This document shows, piece by piece, positions 19,040 to 24,694 of a DNA stretch of 48,816 nt; position 1 is the first letter of the stretch; each line of letters begins with the position of its first letter. The DNA is from a virus. The notes beneath the pieces were generated by a model. It was given only the letters and a program-made list of their open reading frames with translations, did not search any database and was not told the DNA's origin. The stretch lies in IMG/VR virus record IMGVR_UViG_3300025395_000011, positions 1 through 48,816 of that record. The stretch is one strand, 5' to 3'. The position numbers and the translations under genes are program-made.

Positions 19040-19957
19040 ATGGCTATTAATCTCAGTCAGATTCGTGACCTTCTCCTCCCCGGCCTCCGTGGAGTTGAAG
19101 GTAAATATTCTCAGATTCCATCCCAGTACGACAAGGTGTTCGAAATCACCAAGTCAAACATGGCTTTGGAACGCACCGCTGAAATGCGTTACCTTGGTCT
19201 TGCTCAGTTGAAGCAAGAAGGTGGTAACACTCAGTTTGATAACGCCGCTGGCGAACGTTATGTCTATAACCAAGAGCATAACGAAATCGCCCTTGGCTAC
19301 GCGATTACCCGTAAGGCAATCGACGACAACCTCTACAAGGCTCAGTTCAAGCCAACCAACCTTGGCCTTACTGAATCTTTCCATCAGACCAAAGAAATCT
19401 ACGCGGCTAACGTGCTTAACACGGCTACCACGTACAATGCTTCGATTGGTGCTGACGGTGTGGCGCTTTGCTCCACGTCGCATCCTATCGATGGCGGTCT
19501 GACGATTGCTAATACCCCAACTGTACAGGTCGATCTGAACGAAGCAACCTTGCTTAACGCAATGGTTTCTATCCGCCAGAACTTCCGTGATATCGCTGGC
19601 ATCAAGATCTTCGCCCGTGGTCGTAAGTTGATCGTTCCTCCTTCACTTGAACCAGTTGCTATTCGTCTTACGAAAACGCAGCTTCGTCCGGGTACGGCAG
19701 ATAACGACACCAACGCGATCCTCTTTACGGGTGGCGGTCTGCCAGAAGGCTATATGGTCATGGACTTCTTGACCTCCAACTATGCTTGGTTCCTCTTAAC
19801 GAACATTAAGGGTCTGGTATATATGGAGCGCATTCCATTCGAAATGGACATGCAAGTCGATTTCACGACAGACAACCTTCTTGTTAAGGGCTATGAGCGT
19901 TATTCTCTGGGCTATTACAACTGGCGTTCTATCTACGGTTCGTTCCCAACATCGTAA
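19040..19957 (+). CDS. Major capsid protein
   Basis: The 305-residue protein shows the order expected for an HK97-fold capsid protein: N-terminal helix (LSQIRDLLLPGLRGVEGKYS), AGERYVYNQEHNEIALGYAIT, a central ATLLNAMVSIRQNFRDIAG helix and GRKLIVPPSLEPVAIRLTKT, then a terminal beta segment (VKGYERYSLGYYNWRSIYG). I recall this pattern in Mu gpT-like and environmental phage capsid proteins. The codon use is visibly more C-ending (AAC, ACC, CTT) than in the flanking genes, which fits high expression. The ribosome site GGAG is nine bases upstream. Confidence 0.85.
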   Translation: MAINLSQIRDLLLPGLRGVEGKYSQIPSQYDKVFEITKSNMALERTAEMRYLGLAQLKQEGGNTQFDNAAGERYVYNQEHNEIALGYAITRKAIDDNLYKAQFKPTNLGLTESFHQTKEIYAANVLNTATTYNASIGADGVALCSTSHPIDGGLTIANTPTVQVDLNEATLLNAMVSIRQNFRDIAGIKIFARGRKLIVPPSLEPVAIRLTKTQLRPGTADNDTNAILFTGGGLPEGYMVMDFLTSNYAWFLLTNIKGLVYMERIPFEMDMQVDFTTDNLLVKGYERYSLGYYNWRSIYGSFPTS

Positions 19958-21209: not shown

Positions 21210-21626
21210 ATGAAGCATCATTCTGAACATCATGGTCACCATGCTCATGGCGGTCATGCTCATCACATGGTTAAGAAGCATTCTATGCATACGATGAAAC
21301 GTGCTGCCCACAAAAAGGGCGGCGCTGTCGAATCGCCAATGCATGGTCAAGTAGACAAAGACGAAACCCCACATGACGTTTACGCAGGTGCAAATTCTCC
21401 TACGGTACACGAAGCCAAGGAAAAGCATGCAGCCCGTAAACGCGGTGGCCGCACTCACAAGGCGCATAAGCACCTTGAAATGCATGGTCACCATGCTCAT
21501 CACCGTCTTGACCGCCCTGCCCGTAAGTCGGGTGGTGCAGTTGGCGGCGCTGAGATGCGTCCTTTCTCCGCAGCCAACAAGGTTAAGACCCCTGCTGGCC
21601 GCATGGTGGAGCCGGGGGAGTCGTAA
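21210..21626 (+). CDS. His-rich GG-motif protein, zero-frame product
   Basis: The 138-residue zero-frame product begins with a histidine-rich stretch (MKHHSEHHGHHAHGGHAHHM) and has three GG motifs: HKKGGAV, RKRGGRT and RKSGGAV. A second His patch lies in between. Histidine richness suggests metal binding or acid-dependent behaviour (inference). The stop TAA at 21624-21626 lies six bases before a strong stem-loop and behind a run of five G. A conserved domain continues in the minus-1 frame (see 21617-21826), so this may be the shorter of two products. GGAG lies nine bases before the start. Confidence 0.7.
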   Translation: MKHHSEHHGHHAHGGHAHHMVKKHSMHTMKRAAHKKGGAVESPMHGQVDKDETPHDVYAGANSPTVHEAKEKHAARKRGGRTHKAHKHLEMHGHHAHHRLDRPARKSGGAVGGAEMRPFSAANKVKTPAGRMVEPGES

Positions 21627-21649
21627 GCCGTCAGCATCATGCTGATGGC
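21614..21649 (+). promoter_or_regulatory. Candidate minus-1 ribosomal frameshift signal
   Basis: A run of five G followed by AG (21614-21620) spans the zero-frame codons GGG GAG. After a 6-base spacer holding the zero-frame TAA comes a 10-bp stem GCCGTCAGCA (21627-21636) with TGCTGATGGC (21640-21649), a loop of three bases and one G-U pair. The slip site allows perfect re-pairing of the GGG codon but only partial re-pairing of GAG, so it is not a canonical XXXYYYZ heptamer. Spacing and stem are typical of known minus-1 signals. Confidence 0.55.
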
Positions 21650-21826
21650 GGTGCTACGAAGTGGATTCAGGGTGCTATCAAGCATCCCGGTGCGCTTCAT
21701 CGGCAGCTTCACGTCCCGGCTGGGGAGAAAATCCCCGCCAAAAAGTTAGCTAAAGCGGCGCATAGCGATAACCCTACTCTTGCTAAACGCGCCAGACTGG
21801 CTCAGACGTTGAAGAAAATGCACTAA
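21617..21826 (+). CDS. Minus-1 frame extension: conserved basic domain
   Basis: This frame is open from 21587 and ends at 21826, but has no ATG, GTG or TTG at its beginning, so it cannot be started independently in the usual way. It encodes HADGGATKWIQGAIKHPG, then LHRQLHVPAGEKIPAKKLAK and NPTLAKRARLAQTLKKM, a block I recognise as a C-terminal domain common in phage proteins (WIxxAIKxPGALxxxL, then GxxIPxxKL). Joined to the zero frame by a minus-1 shift at about 21617, the product would be about 205 residues. The alternative is a decayed gene with a base lost. Confidence 0.6.
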   Translation, partial: GVVSRQHHADGGATKWIQGAIKHPGALHRQLHVPAGEKIPAKKLAKAAHSDNPTLAKRARLAQTLKKMH

Positions 21827-21867: not shown

Positions 21868-22113
21868 ATGACTGCTGCATGGACAAGATCTGAAGGTAAA
21901 TCACCCTCTGGCGGGTTAAACGCTAAGGGTCGTTCTTCGTATCATTCTGAAACGGGCGGCACATTGAAAGCCCCCACCAAAGATACGCATAATTCCCGCC
22001 ATAAGTCATTCTGTGCGCGGATGGAAGGGATGCGTTCCAAACTGACAAATCACAAAAACGCGCATGATCCAGAAAGCCGGATCAATAAGTCGCTTCGGAA
22101 ATGGGGTTGCTAA
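21868..22113 (+). CDS. DUF6321-like small basic protein
   Basis: The 81-residue protein has AWTRSEGKSPSGGLNAKGR, SYHSETGGTLKAP and SFCARMEGMRSKL, ending INKSLRKWGC. I recognise this as the pattern of DUF6321 (AWTRKEGKNPxGGLNxKGRxSY ... SFCARMxGMK ... LxKWxC), a small basic phage protein with no assigned role. CGGAGG lies five bases before the start. It is the first of a group of three very small genes after a terminator. Confidence 0.85.
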   Translation: MTAAWTRSEGKSPSGGLNAKGRSSYHSETGGTLKAPTKDTHNSRHKSFCARMEGMRSKLTNHKNAHDPESRINKSLRKWGC

Positions 22114-24094: not shown

Positions 24095-24694
24095 ATGGCT
24101 TACATAGTTTACGTAGCGACAAACATTGTAAACGGGAACCGCTATATTGGCGTTACATCCCGTGGTTTGTCATATCGTAAATCCAATCATTATTCTAAGG
24201 CAAGGGCCAAATTTTCAAATGGCGGAAGTTGCCCTAAGTTTCATGCAGCAATTCGCAAATATGGTGAAGACGCTTTTTCATGGGAAATATTAGAAATCCA
24301 TGCAAATATTGATGACATGATAGCAGCAGAAATTCGACTTATTGCTGAATTAAAACCTGAATACAATTTGGCCGCTGGCGGAGAAGGTGCAAAAGGTATT
24401 AAGCACACAGAAGAAACTAAACGTTTACTTTCTGAACAAAAAAAGGGCAAAATTGTTTCCGCAGAAAGACGGGAACAAATGAGAAAAACGGCTCAAAAAA
24501 CAAACACGACCCCCGAATATCGCGCAAAAATGTCTGCTGTCCAAAAAGGTAAACGCAAAACACCTGAATGGCGGGCCAAAATATCTGCTGCCCATAAAGG
24601 CAAAAAGAAACCACGTACCCCAGAACATCAAGCCAAAATTACTGCTGCTCTTCGTGAAACTCATGCACAAAGGCGGATGGAGGCTTTGCACTAA
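24095..24694 (+). CDS. Free-standing GIY-YIG homing endonuclease
   Basis: The 199-residue protein starts with a GIY-YIG nuclease domain: YIVYVATNIVNGNRYIGVTS, then HYSKARAKF, KYGEDAFSWEILE and AAEIRLIAELKPEYNLAAGG, where the Glu before IRLI is the probable catalytic metal ligand. From residue 100 on it has four NUMOD3-like DNA-binding repeats (HTEETKRLLSEQKKGK, SAERREQMRK, TPEYRAKMSAVQKGK, TPEWRAKISAAHKGK and TPEHQAKI). It sits between two virion genes with two bases on one side and a TAATG overlap on the other, which is the usual place of a Seg-like homing gene. The flanking genes appear intact. Confidence 0.92.
   Translation: MAYIVYVATNIVNGNRYIGVTSRGLSYRKSNHYSKARAKFSNGGSCPKFHAAIRKYGEDAFSWEILEIHANIDDMIAAEIRLIAELKPEYNLAAGGEGAKGIKHTEETKRLLSEQKKGKIVSAERREQMRKTAQKTNTTPEYRAKMSAVQKGKRKTPEWRAKISAAHKGKKKPRTPEHQAKITAALRETHAQRRMEALH

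Follow-up and report, generated by a model that had tools for sequence, protein, structure and literature searches.

In the virus record IMGVR_UViG_3300025395_000011 (IMG/VR), analysed here as a window of 48,816 nt, the gene for a His-rich protein is followed by a conserved basic domain that has no start codon and lies in the -1 frame, which raises the question of how this domain is translated. Comparison of sequences makes a programmed -1 ribosomal frameshift at the end of the His-rich gene very likely; expression, reporter and mass-spectrometry data are lacking, and the shifting itself and its efficiency are inferred. The reading, proposed as a candidate in a first-pass annotation, is supported by the two-frame layout, the slip site, its spacing, a stem-loop, frame-specific selection, and the synonymous breakage of the slip site in relatives that lack the domain.

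The His-rich gene and its out-of-frame domain

The zero-frame gene (21210..21626; this and all following features are on the plus strand) encodes a protein of 138 aa that is rich in His, Lys and Arg, contains repeated (K/R)xGG motifs and has the C-terminal end ...KTPAGRMVEPGES*; its stop codon (21624..21626) is TAA in the window and TGA in some relatives. The open stretch of the -1 frame runs from 21587 to 21826, and none of the codons ATG, GTG and TTG occurs in it ahead of the domain. Thus, the first-pass annotation was correct on this point and in all of its coordinates (zero frame, -1 frame, G run, spacer, stem-loop); it had also described a conserved basic domain of 65 residues open in the -1 frame only, of which the conserved part is delimited here as 54 aa (21662..21823; WIQGAIKHPG...LKKMH). 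The -1 frame extension (21620..21826) comprises 68 codons plus stop and includes a linker under purifying selection.

The His-rich gene is located in the head module, two genes downstream of a major-head-protein homologue (19040-19957, phrog_371) and directly after the gene for a 409-aa protein; terminase and SU10-like portal genes are found upstream in the window. From this position only, the product is inferred to be a virion component. Identity with the tail-assembly chaperone G/GT frameshift, the gene for which lies between those for the major tail protein and the tape measure, was rejected for the wrong position and the lack of chaperone homology (no PHROG or Pfam chaperone match was obtained for the His-rich gene). 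No earlier report of this gene was found in the literature searched, which misses most subscription journals.

The domain is weakly similar to the fusellovirus VP2 family, homologues of which have been noted in bacterial viruses (PMC9608457): the Fusello_VP2_Capsid profile (PF25632) matched 24 of 28 domain sequences at E<=0.01, and the copy in the window scored 26.5 bits, just below the curated cut-off of 27, over a short match of 25 residues in the N-terminal third of the profile. A structure model of modest confidence (pLDDT 68) showed three helices; its best matches were uncharacterised phage proteins, and no convincing match was found among solved structures. A role as a basic, possibly DNA-binding, minor component is conceivable by inference, without binding data. 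Deposited phages contain distant copies of the domain only. An unannotated copy with its own ATG is located past the last listed gene of Tunturiibacter phage Tunturi_3 (L128:2453-2638).

Two further genes of the window were noted. An 81-aa gene of its own (21868-22113) matches the C-termini of phage proteins that are far longer (phrog_727, phrog_3477) and represents another end domain that is separately encoded in this phage; and a probable homing endonuclease gene (24095-24694; phrog_314, E 4e-36) is flanked by structural genes.

Conservation of the proposed slip site, the stem-loop and the two frames

A search with the 54-aa domain sequence alone yielded 80 loci, in many of which the domain frame is without ATG and preceded by a zero-frame gene ending in ...PAGR(M/D)V..GES*. 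Through the domain search, a DNA-pattern search and a search with the zero-frame end, the two-frame layout was found in about 50 IMG/VR contigs from many metagenomes, representing 30 distinct sequences. Across these, the 17-nt block CGGGGGAGTCNTRAGCC (CGGGGGAGTCGTAAGCC in the window, 21613..21629) is invariant, the Trp codon of the domain is always 38 nt from the first base of the stop codon, the zero frame ends in ...GES*, and there is no ATG for the domain. The 30-sequence collection itself required the pattern; the two protein searches were independent of it, and since most loci were first found by these, the conservation of the block is not a selection effect. The comparison with relatives suggested in the first-pass annotation thus gave a shared two-frame layout with no base more or less, which excludes assembly error and decay. 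Pattern matches in three unrelated contigs without the domain (L084, L087, L090) were taken as chance matches. In one contig (3300025838_000213; L016 / L192), an indel upstream of the slip site shifts the His-rich gene into another frame, which we consider a mutant or a sequencing error.

The slip site G GGG GAG (21614..21620) is intact in all loci of the clade with a -1 domain. Re-pairing in the -1 frame is perfect in the P-site and requires a G:U pair in the A-site (GAG to GGA). Of the 'normal geometry' claimed initially, the spacing held; the heptamer needs a correction, as it departs from the canonical X XXY YYZ pattern and is a variant of the type GGGGGAR. GGGGGAA with G:U re-pairing has been proposed for actinobacteriophages, in which about a thousand frameshift sites carry this motif (PMC10885494). 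Two distant relatives (L261, L269) have GGGGGAA in the same role with a -1 domain; a pattern search for GGGGGAR sites like these returned only one unrelated contig (L345). The layout is more than chance, because it recurs together with the 17-nt block in 30 distinct sequences, because the codons of the slip site are minority choices in this phage (GGG, 14.5% of glycine codons; GAG, 22% of glutamate codons), and because the stem is stronger than synonymous-codon nulls, as follows.

The stem-loop (21627..21649; 10 bp, UCA loop) begins 6 nt past the slip site, within the distance of about 5-9 nt downstream that is required for a stimulatory structure, and its 5' base is at this constant position, six nt past the heptamer, in the -1 lineages folded. 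The hairpin of the window has -18.7 kcal/mol for a 41-nt fold (shuffle z -4.3). Compared to control codon sets that preserve the -1 frame protein, the native stem was stronger in 20 of 20 distinct linkers (mean z -2.3; range -1.4 to -3.8), with p = 0.036 for the linker of the window itself. RNAalifold produced only a weak consensus stem for all 20 sequences together, because the position of the 3' arm differs between lineages; pairing was therefore counted per group. In the first group (ten sequences), 90 of 90 cells pair (100%), one pair being split evenly between A-U (five sequences) and C-G (five); in the second group, with the 3' arm six nt further downstream, 97% of cells pair, without any two-sided change. 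Covariation support within each group is limited because many stem pairs are invariant, and a point against the reading is that the 3' arm partly coincides with a Gly-Gly codon pair.

Purifying selection acts on both frames, on each in the part attributed to it. In a comparison of 32 distinct sequences, the zero frame had a dN/dS of 0.145 over its final 60 nt before the slip site; the -1 frame had 0.08 in the domain and 0.19 in the linker that separates it from the stop. Values for the unused frames are 1.3 to 4.9. Thus, as expected of a -1 frameshift, the upstream gene is overlapped by a downstream coding region whose -1 frame is both open and selected. We take the selection on the linker as an argument that ribosomes enter the -1 frame ahead of the domain, with the caveat that the stem also constrains the linker.

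In the proposed mechanism, most ribosomes would end at TAA and produce the 138-residue His-rich protein, and a fraction would pause at the stem-loop (21627-21649), shift by one base in the 5' direction on G GGG GAG (21614-21620) and continue to 21826. The long form would then have about 205 residues and carry the 54-residue basic domain C-terminally. The two lengths predicted in the first-pass annotation held (a tandem slip on G GGG GAG would give 205 residues); the product itself has not been shown. The slippage, its rate, and a virion role with the domain on only some copies are inferred.

Relatives without the domain and with other junctions

Five lineages (L144, L146, L174, L190, L194/195) have kept the ...GES* end and are without the domain anywhere on the contig, and in all five the G run is broken synonymously (GGC, GGT or GGA for GGG). 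The domain-less L144 and the shifting L145 are identical in 99 of 102 nt at this end; the differences are GTA/GTG, CCC/CCG and GGC/GGG, two of the three within the slip run. In a head-protein gene tree, domain-less loci are scattered in several places among both shift types. The sample is small and the contigs are fragments; these relatives represent natural slip-site mutants.

The second shift type places the domain in the +1 frame. It occurs in at least three branches of the head-protein gene tree and in more distant phages, with a zero frame ending in GAY-TGA-C (L134, L136, L137, L139, L141, L151, L158, L254, L298; further L304, L312, L320, L328-L334). The contigs of L328, L330 and L339 have identifiers that differ from the metagenome series, and isolates are a possible origin for them. 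Protein-based searches gave overlapping +1 junctions of the GAY-TGA-C type alone, apart from a single contig that has an indel upstream. In a collection of 17 distinct sites, which required the GAY-TGA-C motif, 14 had a Shine-Dalgarno (SD)-like strength that ranked in the upper 8% of their own ORF. Like the prfB +1 frameshift (PMC12421855), the sister class has UGA followed by C and, in most sites, an SD-like element just a few nt upstream, and meets this prfB-type criterion; it does not meet that of a slippery CUU-U, as the P-site codon is Asp GAC or GAU, for which there is no +1 re-pairing, in contrast to Leu CUU in prfB.

A bolder reading, which we regard as no more than possible, is that the same junction has repeatedly evolved different recoding signals, and that the +1 class is a 4-nt ribosomal hop rather than slippage. 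The two Asp codons in GAY-U-GAC would permit a matched-codon hop: peptidyl-tRNA-Asp would leave GAY before UGA and land on the GAC of UGA-C, assisted by the SD-like element. Such an event would be a counterpart of T4 gene 60 bypassing, of a kind whose existence has long been presumed (PMC5009743).

Other arrangements were also observed. A stand-alone domain gene with its own ATG is located directly downstream in distant phages (L198, L200, L201), and one distant relative (L063) has an in-frame fusion, the sole true in-frame counterpart. In five loci (L043, L051, L065, L068, L076) the domain forms an in-frame part of another (K/R)xGG-rich protein, whose gene precedes that of the major head protein; L043 and L051 were considered as in-frame orthologues, and were rejected and not counted for this different gene location. 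In L271, the zero-frame gene and the domain share one frame, separated by GAC TAG CCT GAC, possibly a case of readthrough or of an in-frame stop hop. A -1 overlap between the domain and the 3' end of a zero-frame gene of this kind is also present in five further loci (L215, L241, L250, L252, L258), at AAG-TAG, ACG-TAG or AAC-TAA; they lack both a G run and an ATG in the domain frame, and their junctions are unexplained.

Alternative explanations and known systems

Synthesis of a separate domain protein, by reinitiation or internal non-AUG initiation after the zero-frame stop, is very unlikely. In its favour, the distant phages with a stand-alone gene have an ATG for the domain, there is a TTGA stop/start overlap in L044/L302, GGGGGAG resembles a Shine-Dalgarno sequence, and in some -1 loci a GTG stands two codons ahead of the domain. 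However, only a minority of loci have this GTG, and no start codon of the -1 frame is conserved. Purifying selection in that frame also acts on the linker, which lies upstream of any start of this kind. The exact five-G run is kept beyond the need of a Shine-Dalgarno sequence and is too far from a potential start near the domain.

Also very unlikely is slippage of RNA polymerase, by which a G added on the G run in some transcripts would give the fusion from altered mRNA. The homopolymeric run is conserved and one extra G gives the -1 frame; however, the run has only five G, and five-G runs are short for transcriptional slippage. Moreover, the conserved stem-loop 6 nt downstream suits ribosomes and not a polymerase, and the stop-codon-based +1 site of the sister lineages makes sense in translation only.

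A single gene split by pseudogenization or assembly error, for which the in-frame fusion in L063 could be cited, is all but excluded: 30 distinct sequences share the break, they come from many metagenomes, and dN/dS is low before and after it.

For the programmed frameshift, the closest known systems are extensions of phage coat proteins, which arise via -1 shift, +1 shift or in frame; it has been suggested that chance decides whether recombining domains end up in frame or out of it, with frameshifting as the subsequent rescue (PMC5009743), a model that fits the basic domain well. In common with T3/T7 gene 10, Lactobacillus phage A2 and Listeria phages A118, A500 and PSA (PMC5009743), a virion-module gene is involved and a fraction of its product is extended by a small domain, with -1, +1 or in-frame attachment. 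In contrast to these, the carrier is a His/Lys-rich (K/R)xGG protein and not a major capsid or tail protein, the domain is a 54-aa basic one and not Ig-like, and the sister lineages use stop-dependent +1 sites with a fixed Asp codon. The GGGGGAA 'fivetwo' sites of actinobacteriophages (SEA-PHAGES; PMC10885494) share the five G followed by A and a purine, and the logic of P- and A-site re-pairing; they are mostly in tail-assembly chaperones, whereas the site described here is mostly GGGGGAG, belongs to an unrelated gene and is followed, immediately past the stop, by a conserved stem-loop. Capsid-extension frameshifts of phages (T3/T7, A2, PSA) and the GGGGGAA slip motif are thus already known; the gene, the domain and the swapping of shift type are new.

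With this locus, a widespread group of uncultured phages provides a well-supported site of recoding that is in neither a tail-chaperone nor a capsid gene; a gene caller that requires a start codon would miss the domain. The GAY-UGA-C class makes short ribosomal hops testable, and the GAY-U-GAC hop, if true, would be a natural short matched-codon stop hop. One basic domain is joined to one partner by a -1 shift, a +1 shift or in-frame fusion, has a separate start, or is absent, which provides a second natural series, besides the Ig-like domains, for the study of the gain and loss of frameshift signals.
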